Below are positions 143 to 9,719 of a stretch of DNA of 35,779 bases, piece after piece. The stretch is from Flavobacteriaceae bacterium (GTDB lineage: Bacteria; Bacteroidota; Bacteroidia; Flavobacteriales; Flavobacteriaceae). The notes beneath the pieces are model-generated. The model was not told the origin of the DNA and searched no databases. It worked only from the letters and a program-made list of their open reading frames with translations. The stretch spans positions 1-35,779 of the forward strand of contig JAOZVI010000013.1 of the NCBI GenBank assembly GCA_029938265.1. Direction: 5' to 3'. Made by a program: the position numbers and the translations under genes. The number at the start of each line of letters is the position of its first letter. Position 1 is the stretch's first letter.

Positions 143-1756
143 TTAAAACAACCCATCAGGTGTAATACCCAACCATTTAAAATAGGTCATTGCCATAATG
201 ATTGAAATACCCCAGGCAATAAATTGCATGGTGATACCATACTTAAATGCATCGGTCATACTATACATATCGGTTTGATATAAAAGTAAAGCAGGTTTAC
301 TGTTAAATGGTAAAACATAAACATGTTCTATCAACAAGGCTACCGGAAATGCCAGACTCATAATTGGAAAACCAAAACGTACAGCTACACCTATCGCAAT
401 TGGTACGAAAATCATAGAACGCATGGTTTTTGATTGCATAAAAAGAGCACTAAAAACCATTCCTCCGGTCAGTACAACATACAAAAGCCAGAATGGTGTA
501 GTATCACCAAATCCCATTGCATCAAATGCAGCATTTACGGAAATTTGCGGTAAATCGGTTACCTTAAATCCAGCACCCAAAGTATATGCACCGGCAGAGA
601 ATAATAGAAGGTGCCAGGGTATATCCACATCATTCCATTTTACAATTCCGATTCTTGGCAACAAAGCAACAATACCACCAACAAAAGCAACTGCTGTAGG
701 GCTAATACCGTGATATCTATCGGTTACCCAAAGTGCTAAGATACTTCCAAATATAAGTAATGATTTTATTTCATTAAAACTAACCGGACCTAATTTTTTT
801 AATTCCTTTTTAAGGCTGTCCATACCTCCTTCAATCTGCGGTTTTCTTTCTTCGGGCGATATTGGAAATATTATTTTCATTCCTACAAACCACCCAATGA
901 TCATCAATAACATGGCTACAGGAAATGCTGCTTCCATCCATTGAGAGAAAAATACATCAACGCCTAATGCTCCTGCTATTAAAGATGCTGCCAGTAAGTT
1001 TGCTCCTGACCCTGTTAGAAATGACGCAGCACCCATATTGTTTTGAAATAAATTCTGTAAAACAACATTGCGTCCAAAGTTATTTTTAGATTTACTTGTT
1101 GCTCCATAAATTGCAGCAACAACCATAAATACCGGTAATAAAATAGCTGCTTTTGCTGTAGTAGCTGAAATAAACAATGATAAAACGAGATTTATCACTA
1201 AAAAACTGAAAATTACCGAATTGGCATTATGTCCAAATTTTACAATAAACCAAAGTGCAAATCTCTTGGCTACACCTGTTGCTACTAACATACTGGCTAA
1301 AATAAACGACATAATATTTAACCACATTACTTTATGACCCAATTGATGATAAGCATCAACCTCGGGTAAAGTTCCGGTAAGTACTAAAGAAATAATTAAA
1401 ATTAATGAAGTTAAATAATTTGGAATTGCTTCAGTAATCCAAAGAATTAAAGATGCTGCAAATATTGCCAGCATGGCTTTATTTGAATGGATGAAATTTT
1501 CCATACCAATGGTATCAAAATTTATCCTGGCACTGGCACTTAATTTTTCTATATCAAAATTATGAAGAAATGAAAAATCAAAAACATATAAAATTAATAT
1601 GAAGGAAATAATTGCTAATGGAGCACCAATTTTAACTAAGAATTTTTCAAATTTTGATTTCTCCCTTACCGGAAGTTTCTCCATTCTGTAATTGTTCATA
1701 TCCAGAACATCGTAATCTTCTTCTTTTTCTTCTACTTTTTGTATTGCTTCTGCCAT
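143..1756 (-). CDS. SLC13 (DASS)-family permease
   Basis: This is a 537-residue inner-membrane transporter with an acidic cytoplasmic N-terminus (residues 1-40) followed by about a dozen hydrophobic segments. The two-fold repeat of the divalent anion:Na+ symporter family is recognisable: FISATTAKAAILLP near 195-208 and FMQSKTMRSMIFVP near 439-452 sit where the family's two SNT signature loops lie, and TGSGANLLA follows the first at about 248-256. Both SNT motifs are altered (SAT and SKT), so substrate and ion coupling cannot be read from homology. The start is an ATG with a purine-rich AAAGAG just upstream. The gene lies downstream of phosphate-linked genes on the same strand, but a hairpin and 157 bp separate it from them, so it may be its own unit. 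Dicarboxylate, sulfate or phosphate are all possible substrates; the neighbourhood favours phosphate only weakly. Confidence 0.8.
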   Translation of the reverse strand: MAEAIQKVEEKEEDYDVLDMNNYRMEKLPVREKSKFEKFLVKIGAPLAIISFILILYVFDFSFLHNFDIEKLSASARINFDTIGMENFIHSNKAMLAIFAASLILWITEAIPNYLTSLILIISLVLTGTLPEVDAYHQLGHKVMWLNIMSFILASMLVATGVAKRFALWFIVKFGHNANSVIFSFLVINLVLSLFISATTAKAAILLPVFMVVAAIYGATSKSKNNFGRNVVLQNLFQNNMGAASFLTGSGANLLAASLIAGALGVDVFFSQWMEAAFPVAMLLMIIGWFVGMKIIFPISPEERKPQIEGGMDSLKKELKKLGPVSFNEIKSLLIFGSILALWVTDRYHGISPTAVAFVGGIVALLPRIGIVKWNDVDIPWHLLLFSAGAYTLGAGFKVTDLPQISVNAAFDAMGFGDTTPFWLLYVVLTGGMVFSALFMQSKTMRSMIFVPIAIGVAVRFGFPIMSLAFPVALLIEHVYVLPFNSKPALLLYQTDMYSMTDAFKYGITMQFIAWGISIIMAMTYFKWLGITPDGLF

Positions 1757-1913: not shown

Positions 1914-2387
1914 TTACCAGTTTTTATAAGGATTTTTCATTAACATAGAGTTATAATATTTTACTTGTCCTGTTACTTCTTCTCCCAACCATTCAGGTTT
2001 AGTAAATTCAGTATCTTCACTTGGTAATTCAATTTCAGCTACAGTTAAGCCTTCATTTTCTCCATAAAATTCATCTACTTCAAAAATAAGATCGCCGTCA
2101 GCTTTAACGATAAAACGGGTTTTATCGATAGAGCCAGGTTCACTAATAGCCAATAAGGCTTTTGCATCTTCAACTGAGATCTCTTTTTCCCATTCAAATC
2201 TTGAAGCACCACTTTCATTTCCAATTCCTTTTATCGTAATAAAAGCATTATCACCTTTAATTCGAATACGTACTGTTCTTTCAGGTACCGTAGAAAGGAA
2301 TCCCTGTACAATTTTTGTTTCTTTAGTAACGTGTTTTTTATAATCTCCTTTTACTAAAAATTTTCTTTCAATTTCTCTATTTGCCAT
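1914..2387 (-). CDS. CYTH domain protein (triphosphate tunnel metalloenzyme family)
   Basis: This is a 157-residue cytoplasmic protein that begins with the family signature EIERKFLV (residues 5-12). It then shows TVRIRIKGDNAFITIKG (basic and strand residues of the tunnel), FEWEKEI, and an acidic C-terminal half with FEVDEFYGENEGL and VAEIELPSED, which matches the usual order of metal and phosphate ligands. CYTH proteins of this size in bacteria hydrolyse inorganic triphosphate or short-chain polyphosphate; some are class IV adenylate cyclases. The EIERKF form and position in a phosphate transport cluster favour a triphosphatase, which is inference. It starts with ATG 73 bp after a divergent CYTH-like gene, with a hairpin between, and is followed by a strong hairpin. 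Confidence 0.9.
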   Translation of the reverse strand: MANREIERKFLVKGDYKKHVTKETKIVQGFLSTVPERTVRIRIKGDNAFITIKGIGNESGASRFEWEKEISVEDAKALLAISEPGSIDKTRFIVKADGDLIFEVDEFYGENEGLTVAEIELPSEDTEFTKPEWLGEEVTGQVKYYNSMLMKNPYKNW

Positions 2388-2460: not shown

Positions 2461-3102
2461 TTAATTAGCTAATGGTTTGTTTATCCAACCAATAACTCTT
2501 TTAATTGCTTGTAAATAATTTAAGTTTTCGAAGCTTTCTAATTTACAATCTTCCATAGTTTTTAAAATATCTTTAACTTCGGTAGATTCCGAATTGATAG
2601 TAACAACTTTCGCTCCGTTGATCAATACATTTCCTGTTTCACAAATAGTATCATTTACCATATATCCGAAACGTTGTTTGTGCACTTTAACACCTTGCAG
2701 GTCAGCATGAGCATCGATCATTGCTAAAAATTCTTCTAAAGTATAAGTATCTTGAGTCAAAGCCGGCATTTCAACCTGAAATGCAGGGAATACATCATTT
2801 TCCAATACTTCTTTTGCAATTGGAAATTCACCTTTCATCAAAGGATTCCATTGTTCTAAACCATCTACAGTTTGCACATAGGTTTTAATATCCATTTTGC
2901 CATCACGGATCTTTGTGTTGTTTACATCATTTGTTTTTGACATGATATAAATTTCATCAGATTCTCTTTCCCAAACCTTTTTAGGTACCGGTCCTGATAA
3001 ACGGGCCATCAATTTAGCTGATTCATCAAAGTTTTGACCGAAAGTTCTAAACTCAAATCTAGGTTTAGAGATCTCTCCAATTTTCATTTCTGGTTTTGCC
3101 AT
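2461..3102 (-). CDS. Divergent CYTH-like protein
   Basis: This 213-residue cytoplasmic protein has no assigned function that I can name with certainty. Read against its CYTH neighbour it shows the same layout: a charged strand RFEFRTF near residue 15-21, then DEIYIMSK, then NTKIRDGKMDIKTYVQ (alternating basic strand like the tunnel lysines and arginines), and in the second half HKQRFGYMV, ICETGNVLING and a C-terminal NYLQAIKRVIGW resembling the family's closing helix. The canonical ExExK opening is not intact. This suggests a diverged triphosphate-tunnel fold, an inference made by eye. It starts with ATGGCAAA preceded by AATATT, as the next CYTH gene does, compatible with an old tandem duplication. 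It lies 24 bp after the propeller lipoprotein gene. Confidence 0.6.
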   Translation of the reverse strand: MAKPEMKIGEISKPRFEFRTFGQNFDESAKLMARLSGPVPKKVWERESDEIYIMSKTNDVNNTKIRDGKMDIKTYVQTVDGLEQWNPLMKGEFPIAKEVLENDVFPAFQVEMPALTQDTYTLEEFLAMIDAHADLQGVKVHKQRFGYMVNDTICETGNVLINGAKVVTINSESTEVKDILKTMEDCKLESFENLNYLQAIKRVIGWINKPLAN

Positions 3103-3126: not shown

Positions 3127-3885
3127 TTAGTTTTGTGGTTTTTTAAATATGTATAATTCTTCTTCTGCATCACTTACCACATATATTTTATCTTTTGCAA
3201 TTGCTATACCTTCAGCTTGTAAAACGCCAATTGAATAACTATCTATCAAATCTCCTGTAAGCGTACATTTATTTATTGTTTTACTTTGGTCACTAACAAT
3301 CCAAAGTTCTTTCATTCCATTGTCATAATAAATCCCAGAATAATCAGATGCAAATTTCAGATCATATTCCGTCGAAACTGAAAAGTCACTTCTTAATCTG
3401 ATTAATTTTCCCGGATTCTTTTCATTCAATATAAAAATAGCATTGATATTTTCGGCGTAAGCAACACCTTCAATTCCGCTATTTTCATCATTATTATTAT
3501 AATCGATCCTATGCTTTGTATAAGCTCCGGTTGTCATATCAAACTCTACAATTTCTTTTGTTCTCTCTTCAGCCAATAACAGTTTGTTGGCTTTAAAAGT
3601 GGAAACTCCTTCCAGATCATTTCCTTTATAGTTAAGTGTTTGAATAACATTACCGGTAGTTGACAACATATAAACCTGAGCCGTATGATCACTCACCGTA
3701 TATAAAATACTTTCTGATTTATTGATTGCTAAGCCAGAAGGCTCTTTAACATTGATCTTGTTACTAAAAATTAATTCTAGTTTATCCTTTATAATATCAT
3801 CTCCTCCACCATTATCATCACTGCATGAAATAAAAAAACTCATGCAAAAAAGGATAATGAACAAATATTTTTTTAGTAGTAACAT
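3127..3885 (-). CDS. SdiA-regulated-type beta-propeller lipoprotein
   Basis: This protein of about 252 residues has a lipoprotein signal peptide: hydrophobic residues 6-20 and Cys21 in FFISC, followed by SDDNGGGDD. The mature part repeats short blades (EPSGLAINKSESILYTVSD, LEGVSTFKANKLLLAEE, IEGVAYAENINAIFILNE, AEGIAIAKDKIYVVSD). This spacing is typical of the SdiA-regulated (YjiK-like) propeller family and resembles phytase-like propellers. The start is set at the ATG at 3885; an upstream in-frame TTG at 3906 lies inside a terminator stem and is unlikely. The gene has essentially no leader of its own: the T-run of the preceding terminator ends only a few bases before the ATG. Its substrate is unknown. 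Outer-membrane or surface location is inferred from the lipobox. Confidence 0.75.
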   Translation of the reverse strand: MLLLKKYLFIILFCMSFFISCSDDNGGGDDIIKDKLELIFSNKINVKEPSGLAINKSESILYTVSDHTAQVYMLSTTGNVIQTLNYKGNDLEGVSTFKANKLLLAEERTKEIVEFDMTTGAYTKHRIDYNNNDENSGIEGVAYAENINAIFILNEKNPGKLIRLRSDFSVSTEYDLKFASDYSGIYYDNGMKELWIVSDQSKTINKCTLTGDLIDSYSIGVLQAEGIAIAKDKIYVVSDAEEELYIFKKPQN

Positions 3886-3887
3886 AT

Positions 3888-3925
3888 TAAAAAAATCAGC
3901 TTGCAACTTTCATTGCAAGCTGATT
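3888..3925 (-). terminator. Rho-independent terminator inside the phosphate gene cluster
   Basis: Arms AATCAGCTTGCAA (3894-3906) and TTGCAAGCTGATT (3913-3925) are perfect complements with a 6-base loop, followed on the minus strand by a run of seven T. It starts 11 bases past the stop of the lamin-tail gene (3936) and ends 3 bases before the ATG of the next gene (3885), so it probably sets a partial transcription stop between the two. Confidence 0.85.
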
Positions 3926-3935
3926 AAAAATTTAA

Positions 3936-5546
3936 TTATTGAACGTTAAATACATTCCAAAGAGCAGGATCAGCTTTAAAATCATCTGATTCATCAGTTG
4001 TACCTCCACCTGGAGTATCATCTAAATACATTGAACCATCACTACCATAATAGTACTCTGCAATAGAATTTCCTGAAGCATCCTCAGTTGCGATTCGCAC
4101 ATAAAAAGTAGTTTTATTACCTGTATCTCCAACAGCTAAACCATTATCTGCTACAACATCTTTAAAATTAACTGTAACTCCGGTTTGTGTAAAAGAAGTA
4201 TCATCTTCACCTTTCACTTTATTGTCTTTAACATAAACAGGAGCATCACCTACATCAAAATAGATTCTTGCTTCAGCTACAACATCGGTAGTTGCGTAAG
4301 TCATAACAATATTAATATCAGTTCCCGGAACAGGATTTGTTGGAAAAACAACGCTTGTTAAAGGTCCGTCTGTGTAATTTACTGTTTGATCAACAACAGG
4401 AGCATAAGTAATTGCTTCAACTGTATAACTTGGCCAGCTTGTACCATAGTCATGATTAAAATCTCCACCTTCAATTTCAAAAGGATAGTAAGTTTTTGTA
4501 CCATCAATATACTCAACTCTTAAATAATAGCTAATTACATCATCTGTATTTTGTTCAGGAACTACACCTACGTGTTTATCACCATCTGGTGTTAATGTTA
4601 CTCTAGTTTTATCATCATTAACATCATCTTGTAATTCACCAGGCAGCAAGTAATACAATCTGATTTCATCAACTTGTTCAGGGTAATATGGTATAGCAGT
4701 AAAAGTAACTTCACCTCTATATCCTGCATCTTCTCCTGTAATAATCAACTCTTCTAAACCACCTAAAACTGTAAATTCTGCTGGTTCATTATTGCCATTT
4801 TCAGGATAATATGTACTTAAACCAGTATTATCTGTAGCTATAACATAATATTTAACAACATCACCCACTTTACCTCTAGGTACAGTCGTTTTGTATTCAC
4901 CATCAACCAATGCCATATCAATAGATTGAACACCTTCATTGATCATTTGGATCAATTTAACTGAAGCAATACCATCAGCATCTGAAGCCGAAACAGAATA
5001 AACATTCATAAACTCAGTTAATGGTTCAGCCGATAAAATTGGAGGTGTATTTTCTGCAGCTCCATTTGAAGCTCCGGGAGTTGGAGAACTCACCTTCCAA
5101 GGCTCTTCACCATCAATTTCTCTTGCATAAGTTAAACCTACATTTGCGCTCATATCAGGAACAAAAATTAAGTCAATAACTGATCCATCAGGTTTTGATA
5201 AGGAAACATCTTCACCTCCTGAACTTACTTTGATACCTGATTCATTTTGATCTACTACATAAAACCCTTTTGATCCAATAATTGTTCCTGCAGGAATTTC
5301 AAAACCTCCTTCAGCAACATCTTTATCATTTAGGATATAACCTGAAATATCAAAATCTGCATCACCCATATTATAAACCTCAATCCAGTCAGGTTTATCT
5401 CCTGTATCTTTCGACATTATTTCATTCAATTTCAATTCACCTTCTTCAACTATCGGTCCATCTTTTTCTACTATCTCATCCTCAACACAGCTAACCATAG
5501 TTACAGTTGCGATAAGCATTACTAATAAATATTTTAAATTTTTCAT
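3936..5546 (-). CDS. Lamin-tail-domain lipoprotein
   Basis: This protein of 536 residues has a lipoprotein signal peptide (MKNLKYLLVMLIATVTMVSC, lipobox Cys20) and an acidic linker. A lamin tail domain follows at about residues 37-150 (LKLNEIMSKDTGDKPDWIEV, DISGYILND, IPAGTIIGSKGFYVVDQ, VSLSKPDGSVID, TPGASNG). The remainder is several immunoglobulin/fibronectin-like beta segments (for example SVKLIQMIN, YYVIATDNTG, YYLRVEYIDG, FYVRIATEDASGN). Lamin tail domains in Bacteroidota secreted proteins are accessory modules on phosphatases, nucleases and adhesins; no catalytic domain is visible here. The ATG at 5546 is chosen over an in-frame TTG at 5573 because it places the signal peptide at the N-terminus. 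It follows the porin gene by 30 bp and is followed by a terminator. A surface-exposed binding partner of the porin is a guess. Confidence 0.8.
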   Translation of the reverse strand: MKNLKYLLVMLIATVTMVSCVEDEIVEKDGPIVEEGELKLNEIMSKDTGDKPDWIEVYNMGDADFDISGYILNDKDVAEGGFEIPAGTIIGSKGFYVVDQNESGIKVSSGGEDVSLSKPDGSVIDLIFVPDMSANVGLTYAREIDGEEPWKVSSPTPGASNGAAENTPPILSAEPLTEFMNVYSVSASDADGIASVKLIQMINEGVQSIDMALVDGEYKTTVPRGKVGDVVKYYVIATDNTGLSTYYPENGNNEPAEFTVLGGLEELIITGEDAGYRGEVTFTAIPYYPEQVDEIRLYYLLPGELQDDVNDDKTRVTLTPDGDKHVGVVPEQNTDDVISYYLRVEYIDGTKTYYPFEIEGGDFNHDYGTSWPSYTVEAITYAPVVDQTVNYTDGPLTSVVFPTNPVPGTDINIVMTYATTDVVAEARIYFDVGDAPVYVKDNKVKGEDDTSFTQTGVTVNFKDVVADNGLAVGDTGNKTTFYVRIATEDASGNSIAEYYYGSDGSMYLDDTPGGGTTDESDDFKADPALWNVFNVQ

Positions 5547-5576
5547 TTTATTATTTTTTAAACGTTTATCCAATTA

Positions 5577-6941
5577 TTAAAAATCAACTTCAATTCTGAA
5601 AGAAACAAAACCAAAGTCATCACCACCTTTTCCTGTAGCTTCAACAACTTGGAACGGATCTTTTGTTAAATCTCCATTTTCATCATGACCTACATATAAC
5701 TTACCTTTACCATTTGCATATCTATCATGGTTATTATAAGTATAGTTCATCATAAATTTTACATTTGGATTAAAGTGATAATTTAAGCCAAAAGTATAAC
5801 CTTCTGCAGAACCACCATATATTTCGGCATCAAAATCATTCGCATCAATAAAGTCATATCTAAATGCAACTTCTAAATCTCCCATATCTCTACCCCTTGT
5901 TATTCTTGTAAATTCACCTTCTCTCATATTATAGTTATGATGTCCACCAAATATTAAGTATGCTGCTTGTATATAAAAACCATTGACATGAAAGCTCTCC
6001 AGGTCATTCATTCTATCAATTGTAGCCATTTTATACTCTCCCTGAAACATAAAGCTTTTGAATTTACCAGCCAATTCAAATACAAACCCAGTAGTACTTT
6101 CTACATCTTTAATATCATCCGTATCAATATATTTTTTTCTATTGATAGATGTATGAGATCTTGTGCTCAATCTATAAGTATTTGGATCTTCCAAATCAGT
6201 TTTCGGAGTTCGATATGTTCCTGCAATACCTAAATGCAGCACTTTGTCAACATCAAGAATTGGTGTAAAAACAGCTCTACCTGTTAAAGAATATCCTTCA
6301 TCAATACCAAAATCTTTATTTTGATCTTGAGAGAATTCTACTTCTTCATATTCTCCCTGTGTATTAAAATGAACACCTCCAACGAACAAAAATTTGTTTA
6401 GCATGATATTAGTTTGAACCCCTAAATGACGAGAAGCATCCATTTTGGAAACAAATGAACGTTCCATAAAAGTAAGGTATCTTGAAGATGTAGTTGTTTC
6501 CATACCAATACCTTCTTTAAAATGACCTGCTTTAATGTTCCATCTTCTTGAATCAGCCATATATTTAATATACATGTCTTTCATTTCAATAGCAGAGCCG
6601 GCAAAATCAACATCAATTTCACCATACCAATTATTCCAAAATTCTGCTTTAACTGCAAATCTTGCTCTACGAATGTTATAACCATTTCCTATTGGATTAT
6701 ATACATCGTTTGAAAAATAAGCAGCATCAAATTGAACTCTATTATCCATCCATAATTTATAACTGCCATCTTTAGACCTGAATTTAATAAATCCATCTTG
6801 TGCTTCTGTCTCTAAAGGCAATGCTTCTACTACCTGACCATACTGGTTAATTCTAACCGAATCAGTTTTAACTTCCTGGGCATGAGTTCCGATACTGTAA
6901 AGGACCAATGCCACTACCAATGTGTAAAATTTATTTCTCAT
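5577..6941 (-). CDS. OprP/OprO-like outer-membrane porin
   Basis: This 454-residue protein has a signal peptide (MRNKFYTLVVALVLYSIGTHA) and then a linker to a beta-barrel rich in alternating aromatic and polar strands: FRSKDGSYKLWMDNRVQFDAAYF, then FAVKAEFWNNWYGEIDVDF, KDMYIKYM, NIKAGHFKEGIGMETTTSSR, and a last strand FVSFRIEVDF that ends in Phe as outer-membrane proteins do. This pattern matches the phosphate-selective porin O and P family, whose members carry phosphate or polyphosphate across the outer membrane. It lies directly downstream of a PiT phosphate transporter (48 bp) and upstream of the lamin-tail lipoprotein (30 bp), which supports phosphate or polyphosphate as the solute. In Bacteroidota the same family name also covers porins of other specificity. 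Confidence 0.85.
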   Translation of the reverse strand: MRNKFYTLVVALVLYSIGTHAQEVKTDSVRINQYGQVVEALPLETEAQDGFIKFRSKDGSYKLWMDNRVQFDAAYFSNDVYNPIGNGYNIRRARFAVKAEFWNNWYGEIDVDFAGSAIEMKDMYIKYMADSRRWNIKAGHFKEGIGMETTTSSRYLTFMERSFVSKMDASRHLGVQTNIMLNKFLFVGGVHFNTQGEYEEVEFSQDQNKDFGIDEGYSLTGRAVFTPILDVDKVLHLGIAGTYRTPKTDLEDPNTYRLSTRSHTSINRKKYIDTDDIKDVESTTGFVFELAGKFKSFMFQGEYKMATIDRMNDLESFHVNGFYIQAAYLIFGGHHNYNMREGEFTRITRGRDMGDLEVAFRYDFIDANDFDAEIYGGSAEGYTFGLNYHFNPNVKFMMNYTYNNHDRYANGKGKLYVGHDENGDLTKDPFQVVEATGKGGDDFGFVSFRIEVDF

Positions 6942-6989: not shown

Positions 6990-8786
6990 TTATAATTTTC
7001 TAATAATTTTACTAAGTTTTTCCTCTTTTTTAATATCCATTTTTTTTCGCAACCTGTATCTGTTCACTTCAACGCTTTTTGGTGTAATATTTAATATTGA
7101 AGAAATTTCTTTCGAAGTTAACTTTAATCGTAATAGTGAACATAATTTTTTTTCATTTTCCGTTAAACCTGGATATTTTTTTTCAAGATTGTTATAAAAA
7201 TTATTGTTTAGTTCTTTTATATATTTATCAAAAGATTTTCTTTCTCTTTCAATATTCAGATTTTCAATGATGATCAACTTCAGTTTGTTTAGATCTTTGA
7301 ATTTTAATTTGTCTTCAGATTTTGATTTCAACTTTTCAATTTCATCTTTTAATTCTGATAGTATCTCATTTTTCCTGATGATACTCAGTGCAACTTTCTT
7401 TTGCTCTTTTTCTCTATCTTCAATTTCCCTTTCCAATTTCAAGTTAAATTCATTTGTCGCTCTTAGTTCATTTTCAAGTAATATTTGTTGTGCGTCATAT
7501 CTTTCAATACTCTCCTGAAATTCTTCAAGTTTATCTTTTTCTTTATGTTTACTTATGATATACATTAAATATACTACTACAATCAGTAAAAGAATAATCA
7601 CTATAATAACTGCCGGTTTATATAAATTAACCGTTGTTATTATTTCATCTGTTTCACCTAAATTTTCAATTATTTTAGTTCCACTATCAACTGAAGTATG
7701 AGTATCTTTAGCAACAACAACATCACCTTTAACAAATTTAGATGGATTTGCAGAAACTTTTAAATTAAATACATTACTCATAATAAATAAAGCCAAAAAT
7801 GCTATAAAACCAGCAATTATAGGCGTTACTAACCAACCTAAAGCAATTCTCCCAATAACTTTTAATTGAATATTTTTTCCTCCTTTTAAGATCCCTATTC
7901 CCAAAATCGCACCAACAATAGCTTGTGAACTAGATACGGGTACTAAAGGAATTTCCGGTAAACCAATTCTGACAAATAAATCAGATAAACTTTGAGAAGA
8001 AAATACAAACAAAACCAATGAATGTGCCAATACAACGATTATGGCTGTTTCTGCATTTAATTTCATCAATGAATTTCCAACTGTCATCATTACCTTTTTA
8101 GAATAAGTAATAATTCCAACTGCAATAGAAATACCACCCGCTAGAAATAACAACTGAATTCCATCTAAAGAAAAGAAACCAAAGTCCAGAGTTATATTTG
8201 GAGCTGACGGTATAAAAACACCTACAACGTTTGCAATATTATTTGCACCTAAACTAAAAGACCCAAACGCACCAACAATTAACAAGGCATACTTAATGTA
8301 TGCGTCTAATTTAATTAAATGGATTTTACTTTTCCTTAAAATAAATTGTAATAATAAGAATAATAAAACAGCAAAAATTCCACCTAAAATCGGGCCCGAA
8401 ATCCAGGTAGTAACGATTTTAGTTAAGGAATTCATATCTGTTGGATTATGAGTGAAAAAATTCCAACCAATAATAGCACCAACTACAGCCTGTGAAGTAG
8501 AAACCGGAAGTTTCAGTTTTGTCATCCAGAAAACAGATATACCGGCAGCCAAAGCAACTGTAAATGCACCTCCCAAAGCATCAACAGAACCTAACTTACC
8601 TAAAGTATGTGAACCTCCGGCGCCTTGTAAAACAGCACCTAATATCACAAAAATGGAAGCAATAATTGCAGCTTGTTTAAAACGGATCATTTTTGAACCA
8701 ACAGCTGATCCAAATACATTGGAAGCATCATTGGCTCCTAATGTCCATCCTAAAAAAAGTCCGCTTGATAAAAAGAATAAAAACAT
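6990..8786 (-). CDS. PiT-family phosphate transporter fused to a membrane-anchored LuxR-type HTH domain
   Basis: This is a 598-residue fusion. Residues 1-340 form an inner-membrane PiT permease with the duplicated signatures GANDASNVFGSAVGSK (17-32) and GANNIANVVGVFIPSA (180-195), and paired VSTSQAVVGA / VSSSQAIVGA motifs. Residues 341-389 form a soluble loop. A further membrane helix lies at 391-411 and ends in KHKEKDK, so the tail should face the cytoplasm. Residues 413-495 are a heptad-rich charged coiled coil, and 538-598 are a LuxR-type HTH (YPGLTENEKKLCSLLRLKLT, SKEISSILNITPKSVEVNRY, RLRKKM). That tail is the standard C-terminus of Bacteroidota TPR- or propeller-type membrane regulators, not of phosphate permeases. 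The frame is uninterrupted. It lies 20 bp after the DUF47 gene. A transporter that also reports phosphate status to DNA (a transceptor) is the inference. Confidence 0.9.
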   Translation of the reverse strand: MFLFFLSSGLFLGWTLGANDASNVFGSAVGSKMIRFKQAAIIASIFVILGAVLQGAGGSHTLGKLGSVDALGGAFTVALAAGISVFWMTKLKLPVSTSQAVVGAIIGWNFFTHNPTDMNSLTKIVTTWISGPILGGIFAVLLFLLLQFILRKSKIHLIKLDAYIKYALLIVGAFGSFSLGANNIANVVGVFIPSAPNITLDFGFFSLDGIQLLFLAGGISIAVGIITYSKKVMMTVGNSLMKLNAETAIIVVLAHSLVLFVFSSQSLSDLFVRIGLPEIPLVPVSSSQAIVGAILGIGILKGGKNIQLKVIGRIALGWLVTPIIAGFIAFLALFIMSNVFNLKVSANPSKFVKGDVVVAKDTHTSVDSGTKIIENLGETDEIITTVNLYKPAVIIVIILLLIVVVYLMYIISKHKEKDKLEEFQESIERYDAQQILLENELRATNEFNLKLEREIEDREKEQKKVALSIIRKNEILSELKDEIEKLKSKSEDKLKFKDLNKLKLIIIENLNIERERKSFDKYIKELNNNFYNNLEKKYPGLTENEKKLCSLLRLKLTSKEISSILNITPKSVEVNRYRLRKKMDIKKEEKLSKIIRKL

Positions 8787-8806: not shown

Positions 8807-9457
8807 TTACATTTTAATCTTAATCACTAAAGAAGATAATTGTTGTGCAACATCTTTTGCTGCCTCTGAAACTTGTTCAATATGTAAAGCAAAATATCGT
8901 AAATGAATTTTTTCACTTAACTTTAAGGAGTCAAAATCCTGAAATATTTTCCGTTTAATATTGGTTGACAATACATCAGTTTCTCTATGGTAAAACAAAA
9001 CCTTTTGAATTTTATCTTTTACTTCATCAGGAGATGTAAAAAATATTCTCGCAGCAGGTATAACATTTTCAGCTGATTTTGCAGAGAGTGAAACCAATTC
9101 TGAATAATCATTTTTTATCGCTTCGGGCATATGAGGAGTTTCAACTTCAAACTGACTCAAAACATTTTTAGATCTATCTACTATATCATCTACACTTTCT
9201 AACAGATTTAAAATATCACTTGCATAATTTGGCATTAATGAATGCAAGTAAAAATCATTCTCAATTTTTCTTTGTATTGAATCGGCATCTTTTTCTAAAA
9301 TATTTAATGTTTTTAGATTTTGATTAAATTCAATAGTATTACCATTTATGTAATTTTTAATTCCTTGCTTGAAATTTAAAATTCCAAGGTCTATTTTATC
9401 AAAAAATTCGTCAATACTTAACGCTACAGATTTTGAAGTTTTAAAAATATTAATCAT
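8807..9457 (-). CDS. DUF47 / PhoU-like phosphate transport accessory protein
   Basis: This 216-residue all-helical cytoplasmic protein starts MINIFKTSKSVALSIDEFFDK. It has the usual helical hairpins (LNILEKDADSIQRKIENDFY, LLESVDDIVDRSKNVLSQFE, ETDVLSTNIKRKIFQ, LSEKIHLRYFALHIEQVSE) with acidic metal-binding clusters such as EKDAD and ESVDD typical of PhoU relatives. DUF47 proteins are encoded with PiT transporters and are thought to control them, as PhoU controls Pst. Here it is the first gene of the minus-strand cluster, 20 bp before the PiT fusion. A TATCTTCG promoter element lies about 26 bp upstream. Confidence 0.9.
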   Translation of the reverse strand: MINIFKTSKSVALSIDEFFDKIDLGILNFKQGIKNYINGNTIEFNQNLKTLNILEKDADSIQRKIENDFYLHSLMPNYASDILNLLESVDDIVDRSKNVLSQFEVETPHMPEAIKNDYSELVSLSAKSAENVIPAARIFFTSPDEVKDKIQKVLFYHRETDVLSTNIKRKIFQDFDSLKLSEKIHLRYFALHIEQVSEAAKDVAQQLSSLVIKIKM

Positions 9458-9482: not shown

Positions 9483-9490
9483 CGAAGATA
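9483..9490 (-). promoter_or_regulatory. Putative -7 element for the DUF47-PiT-porin cluster
   Basis: On the minus strand this reads TATCTTCG, close to the Bacteroidota -7 consensus TAnnTTTG, about 26 bases upstream of the DUF47 ATG. No clear -33 TTG lies at the expected spacing. The same octamer occurs upstream of the minus-strand gene starting at 24460. The rest of the 9458-9719 gap is AT-rich with no other structure I can support. Confidence 0.4.
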
Positions 9491-9719
9491 TGGTTATTTG
9501 AGAGTTAAATAAAGTGATAAATATCAGGTGTAATATTGTAATCTGCCATGTAGTGTTTTTATAATATTTTAACTATCTGTTATATAGCTTTTTATATTAT
9601 TTATGTAGTTTATTAAAATACTGTAAAATACTAATTGTAGTGTTTTTGTTTGGTTTTTATTTAATTTGTTACCAAAATACGTCGTGATGTAGCGTTATTT
9701 TTTATAATATATTTATCAT

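Follow-up and report, generated by a model that had tools for sequence, protein, structure and literature searches.

A PiT permease with a DNA-binding tail

Can a phosphate permease carry, in the same polypeptide, the transcription factor that controls its own operon? This question is raised by a locus of a Flavobacteriaceae bacterium (assembly GCA_029938265.1, contig JAOZVI010000013.1), of which we analyzed a window of 35,779 nucleotides. Minus-strand positions 6990-8786 hold a single uninterrupted open reading frame of 598 amino acids with an ATG start. A first-pass annotation had read in it one frame joining a complete PiT permease with both GAN(D/N) signatures to an added helix, a coiled coil and a LuxR-type helix-turn-helix (HTH), and had proposed that phosphate flux is thereby coupled to gene control.

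The open reading frame, Pfam profiles and an AF2 model all bear out this domain order (Table 1). The PHO4 profile matched with 195 bits against a cut-off of 33.7, and the GerE (LuxR HTH) profile with 25.0 bits, barely above its cut-off of 23.5. The AF2 model (39 homologues, mean pLDDT 77.7) contains the PiT helices, a disordered stretch at residues 349-381 of the linker (pLDDT under 50), one helix from 389 to 487 and a four-helix HTH. Comparison of the model with the PDB revealed that the permease domain covers all of TmPiT (6l85, 313 residues aligned), such that both ends of one align to both ends of the other, and that residues 532-598 match LuxR-family HTH domains (DosR C-terminal domain, Z 9.0; NarL-DNA, Z 7.4). 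Five HTH residues (K570, S571, E573, R576 and R578) are invariant in the 39 alignment rows. The protein belongs both to the PiT fold family and to the LuxR-HTH class.

Its permease part shares the whole PiT fold and the GAND motif (residues 17-20) with PiT/SLC20 (PHO4) permeases such as TmPiT. It differs from them in that the second signature (residues 180-183) is GANN, not GAND, and that Q replaces H in both PxSxx motifs, differences common to nearly all of the 94 relatives compared; the extra transmembrane helix, coil and HTH are further departures from the family. A sulfate permease identity was rejected, as the CysP model gave 79 bits against a cut-off of 400.

PiT termini face outward. 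Because the C-terminus of the permease would thus lie outside, the tail would need an added helix to reach the cytoplasm. Residues 393-411 have the highest hydropathy of the whole protein, one added hydrophobic helix lies between PiT and coil in all 41 sufficiently long fused homologues, and K and R are richer after this helix, on the coil side, than before it in 38 of the 41. We infer a topology with the linker outside and the HTH in the cytoplasm, and an HTH dimer.

Table 1. Features of the locus, in window coordinates. Residue numbers refer to the 598-aa protein.
Feature	Position	Strand	Evidence
SLC13/DASS Na+-anion symporter, end of gene run	143..1756	-	Na_sulph_symp 2.7e-52
CYTH (triphosphate tunnel) protein, operon	1914..2387	-	8.7e-14
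Unnamed conserved protein, predicted triphosphate-tunnel fold, operon	2461..3102	-	AF2 pLDDT 81; TTM enzymes Z 12-13
SdiA-regulated/phytase-like propeller protein, operon	3127..3906	-	7.7e-28 and 1e-7
Lamin-tail-domain (LTD) protein, operon	3936..5573	-	LTD 2.2e-13; synteny
Phosphate-selective porin O/P family outer-membrane protein, next downstream of PiT-HTH	5577..6941	-	Porin_O_P 2e-41
LuxR/NarL-type HTH, residues 541-588	7023..7166	-	GerE 1.4e-5; DosR/NarL fold match
Coiled coil, residues 412-487	7326..7553	-	AF2 single helix 389-487 (TM + coil); dN/dS ~0.05
Extra transmembrane helix (13th by TmPiT count), residues 393-411	7554..7610	-	hydropathy 3.53
Linker, residues 342-390, variable, predicted periplasmic	7617..7763	-	pLDDT; identity; dN/dS
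PiT (PHO4/SLC20) permease domain, residues 1-341	7764..8786	-	Pfam 1.8e-57; AF2 vs 6l85 Z 39.8
DUF47/PhoU_div, first operon gene, directly upstream of PiT-HTH	8807..9457	-	Pfam 2.3e-17
TATCTTCG, Bacteroidota -7-like element (TAnnTTTG, one mismatch)	9483..9490	-	motif match
TGATATTTATCA, Crp/Fnr-like dyad, possible second regulator site	9515..9526	-	motif excess in Flavobacteriaceae group
Predicted operator: AAACWCTACA boxes 9548-9558, 9635-9645, 9687-9697; further ACTACA 9604-9609	9548..9697	-	motif search

The fusion is intact across genomes and its tail is under selection

An assembly join or frameshift at the start of the tail, which the first-pass annotation had placed near 7760-7820, would have undone this reading. 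We locate the PiT/tail junction near 7617-7763, close to that placement, and find the fusion intact and in the same frame in three genomes of the same genus (G003, G005 and G001, with 95, 84 and 78% identity) and in some 35-40 further genomes; in one more congener (G004) the tail alone is present, at a contig end. Ratios of dN/dS were 0.02-0.07 for the PiT domain, 0.03-0.09 for the HTH and about 0.05 for the coil where dS was measurable, values that indicate strong purifying selection on HTH and coil and an HTH kept by selection. The intact homologues and the HTH ratio together rule out a join, a frameshift or a functionless tail in decay, a reading for which we found no supporting evidence and whose probability we regard as negligible. 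The linker is variable (identity 0.32-0.78, dN/dS 0.2-0.9), which argues against a rigid rod transmitting a flux signal.

Distribution and origin of the fusion

A survey of PiT proteins for the same architecture, which had been suggested as a check, revealed that the fusion recurs: 44 of the 94 related PiTs compared carry it or, in contig-cut copies (3-4 of the 44), its start. About half of the 80 nearest PiTs in GTDB species genomes continue into the same TM-coil-HTH tail, among them proteins of Lutibacter, Mariniflexile, a Maribacter MAG, Bacteroidales, Lentimicrobium, Chitinophagaceae and Saprospiraceae; one fused PiT lies in a MAG labelled Melioribacteraceae. Across 395 genomes sampled from the phylum, only the window's own genome had a member of this PiT group whose frame was long enough to include an HTH. 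The frames of the other close matches were 390-530 aa long, and those inspected had no HTH; among well-sequenced species the fusion is thus uncommon.

Unfused PiTs end in one of three ways: with no extension ("short"), with a transmembrane helix and a stub ("TMstub", Bacteroidales), or with an extension of about 150 aa ("sol150", several phyla, some Bacteroidota). In a tree of the 94 PiT domains, whose deep branches are weak, all 44 fused proteins fall in one Bacteroidota-centred clade of 67 (SH-aLRT 99) together with all TMstub and 7 short members. The HTH label changes 7 times on the best tree compared with 31 after shuffling, and a single origin of the fused tails relative to 41 other regulators is not rejected (AU p 0.34). 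We read this pattern as best fitting one old gain of the tail followed by several losses, a gain that is not confidently rooted, as some of the branches behind the 7 changes are weak.

The TMstub PiTs (L056, L057, L058, L062, L063, L070, L079, L091 and others) have the extra helix and end in a conserved SEEKFWKN(I/M)K stub. They have neither HTH nor upstream boxes of the kind described below, and appear to be a derived form that serves a separate function. The uncharacterised extension of about 150 aa occurs on PiTs of several phyla (L115-L120, L078, L086, L098, L103, L106, L108, L110), mostly adjoining DUF47, and is probably periplasmic. A candidate remnant tail in a sister family (G075) was rejected: the alignment to position 410 spans six stops, and the PiT frame itself is 373 aa long and is followed by the porin gene.

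Outside PiT proteins, the same tail belongs to known membrane regulators. Residues ~390-595 share 35-40% identity, with E down to 2e-27, with ~940-aa Bacteroidota one-component regulators of the BT3442-like kind (propeller/Y_Y_Y or TPR sensor, TM, coil, LuxR HTH), whose TM-coil-HTH tail is homologous. The earlier assignment of the tail to propeller or TPR sensors agrees with this, as none of the 52 non-PiT carriers checked has more than one hydrophobic span, signal peptides aside, and by length and sequence they look like propeller (~930-1000 aa) or TPR-type (~530-650 aa) proteins. None of the 52 is polytopic, PiT being the sole polytopic partner seen. Judged by these homologies, the tail is joined to the permease in the position usually held by a periplasmic sensor, such that a polytopic PiT permease stands in for the soluble sensor and the protein, unlike those regulators, spans the membrane many times.

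A phosphate-type operon

The gene run, all on the minus strand, reads DUF47, PiT-HTH, porin O/P, LTD protein, SdiA-regulated/phytase-like protein, a 213-aa protein, CYTH and SLC13. DUF47 lies immediately 5' of PiT in nearly all homologous loci and also adjoins unfused PiTs, and the porin gene lies 3' of the fused PiT wherever the contig is long enough. The DUF47 and porin O/P neighbours hint that phosphate may be the transported ion, the gene content as a whole points to phosphate and short polyphosphates, and the DUF47 protein is a plausible modulator of PiT-HTH.

The 213-aa protein is highly conserved, has no Pfam match and is the neighbour of the CYTH gene, so that the operon would hold two triphosphate-tunnel-type proteins, one of them by predicted fold. 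Profile comparison of the 213-aa protein with CYTH gave no signal, though the structures agree.

The window's genome encodes two further canonical PiTs of ~780 aa. No PstA above cut-off was found in it or in G001 and G003, an absence that is weak evidence in incomplete genomes; PstA is present in fusion-bearing Lutibacter and Lentimicrobium genomes.

A box array upstream of fused operons

An alignment of the sequences before DUF47 from close relatives first revealed a repeated ACTACA. Among 41 fused operons, CACTACA occurs in 19 (1.8 expected), CTCTACA in 15 (1.1) and CTATACA in 18 (2.1), and none of these k-mers stands out in the unfused sets. The consensus derived by EM, AAACWCTACA, has at least one site upstream of 38 of the 41 fused operons and at least two upstream of 30, nearly all on the coding strand, compared with none of 44 unfused operons. 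Cross-validation gave the same picture: a model trained on Flavobacteriaceae found 25 forward sites in 26 loci of other orders (2.6 expected; 2 reverse), and the reverse training found 21 (1.5 expected), with unfused sets near expectation. One of the three loci without boxes (L083) has a misplaced start and a cluster just 5' of its DUF47 gene. The other two, Lutibacter L040 and L041, have AAACTCTCA repeated upstream of DUF47 in place of the standard box, perhaps because operator and HTH are changing together. One Lutibacter MAG has two DUF47-PiT-HTH operons (L033 and L034; the second contig-cut), with boxes at both.

Spacing and placement of the boxes are also ordered. Distances between boxes cluster near 11, 21, 32, 43, 54, 86 and 97, a period of ~10.8-10.9 bp (R 0.73 among representatives; as high in 0 of 1000 random placements). 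In 320 kb of fused loci there are 58 close pairs at the DUF47 start and 12 at other places, against a single pair in 311 kb of unfused loci. The array upstream of the operon is the only three-box cluster of the 35.8-kb window, and two-box patterns in the window's genome (G000) hit this operon and one coding site, leaving the operon's own as the sole non-coding cluster found. A two-box match in G001 lies after an FAA-hydrolase gene, the equivalent place, and is the operon-upstream array. A strict search of four genomes for CWCTACA-N-CWCTACA proved too strict, finding that array of G001 alone, and a wider regulon search gave extra matches at control level, the inspected ones inside coding sequence. 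At E<=0.001, G000 yielded no further protein bearing this tail.

The probable account of these boxes is that the HTH of the fusion binds them, and the sequence comparisons lend good support to such putative DNA targeting. We consider it quite improbable that the boxes serve a different regulator (a PhoB-like one or one of Crp/Fnr type) and merely travel with this type of operon while the HTH acts elsewhere or weakly. Helical direct-repeat arrays would also fit response regulators, and other factors may act at these promoters, as a Crp/Fnr-like dyad (TGAT-N4-ATCA) lies ~60-70 bp before the DUF47 start in 13 of 15 Flavobacteriaceae-group fused operons (17 sites, 0.12 expected). The dyad is, however, nearly absent outside fused operons of that group and suggests a second input, whereas across orders the boxes go together with the HTH, and the TM-stub, short and 150-aa-tail groups have neither. 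On the best tree this box-fusion link has 5 independent contrasts behind it, nearly all agreeing and 2 of them on well-supported branches; with so few contrasts, it partly reflects shared descent. In several unfused loci SLC13 directly precedes DUF47, and the missing boxes there are weak evidence because the promoter may lie further up.

In the window, the -7-like TAnnTTTG element stands ~33 bp before the start codon with the boxes upstream of it, a position typical of activators, so activation is favoured. A scan for sigma-70-type promoters gave no excess over shuffles.

How the fusion may act

Drawing on the fusion, its conservation, selection and fold, the extra helix and the box-fusion link, each documented at the sequence level, we favour, with somewhat more confidence than doubt, a membrane-tethered one-component regulator (a "transceptor") that activates its own phosphate operon and whose sensory part is the PiT permease. 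The extra helix would bring the tail from the outside back to the cytoplasm, where the coiled coil would pair two LuxR HTH domains; this dimer would bind the AAACWCTACA arrays on one face of the DNA before the DUF47-PiT-HTH-porin operon, and the operon would be switched, most likely on, by the state of the permease, be it phosphate binding, transport or contact with DUF47. The transporter thus probably switches its own operon directly; activation as the sign of control and phosphate as the signal are what promoter layout and gene content suggest. The variable linker, which disfavours rigid transmission, the PiT core motifs, alike with and without the tail, and the HTH score barely over its Pfam cut-off argue against this reading. 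The flux-coupled control first proposed is partly supported: it has gained a candidate DNA target in the array before its own operon, and flux is one of several possible signals next to binding, protein level and DUF47.

A less probable possibility, though one with a real share of our belief, is that the tail is a working transcription factor for which PiT serves only as a membrane anchor or protein-level gauge, such that the protein reports its own amount (autoregulation) and not phosphate or flux. The variable, disordered linker and a target apparently confined to its own operon would fit this, as would a PiT core that is the same as in unfused relatives: GAND, GANN and two PxSxxQ motifs are identical in both, so the fusion does not alter the transport motifs and they bear no mark of the fused permease as a specialised sensor. 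The transporter domain of CbrA is likewise not clearly required for signalling, according to a review (PMC8871633). Against it, the tail otherwise sits on periplasmic sensor domains, which makes a sensing input its usual use, and the phosphate-type operon makes a Pi input sensible.

Relation to known systems

The closest precedents are the transporter-histidine kinase fusions, in which a permease fold is joined to a signalling output: CbrA (SLC5-STAC-PAS-HK; PMC8871633) and KsAmt5 (Amt-HK; PMC10433425). Our protein differs from both in its DNA-binding output without a phosphorelay and in its permease family. In the PstSCAB-PhoU-PhoR-PhoB system a transporter and its PhoU-type partner feed into transcription (PMC6978683), whereas here transporter and factor are one protein, DUF47 takes the place of PhoU, and the window's genome has no PstA above cut-off. 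LysP and CadC pair a permease with a membrane-bound transcription factor (PMC6978683) as two separate proteins, compared with one chain here. A search of an open-access library of published papers found no description of a PiT-LuxR or other permease-transcription factor fusion.

Signalling transporters normally work via a partner protein or kinase; if our reading is true, the shortest pathway of this kind would be a permease that carries the DNA-binding domain itself and has a predicted operator. Tentatively, and with rather less confidence than in the reading for this one protein, we extend it to a widespread Bacteroidota class of permease-transcription factors, in which one polypeptide would import phosphate, sense it and bind an operator array of its own; phosphate control would then need neither PhoR/PhoB nor a phosphorelay, and DUF47 would set the gain. 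Whether flux, binding or amount is the signal would be testable in one protein and one promoter. The locus further draws attention to a phosphate/triphosphate operon that has gone unstudied, and to phosphate control among bacteria whose genomes yielded no Pst permease.
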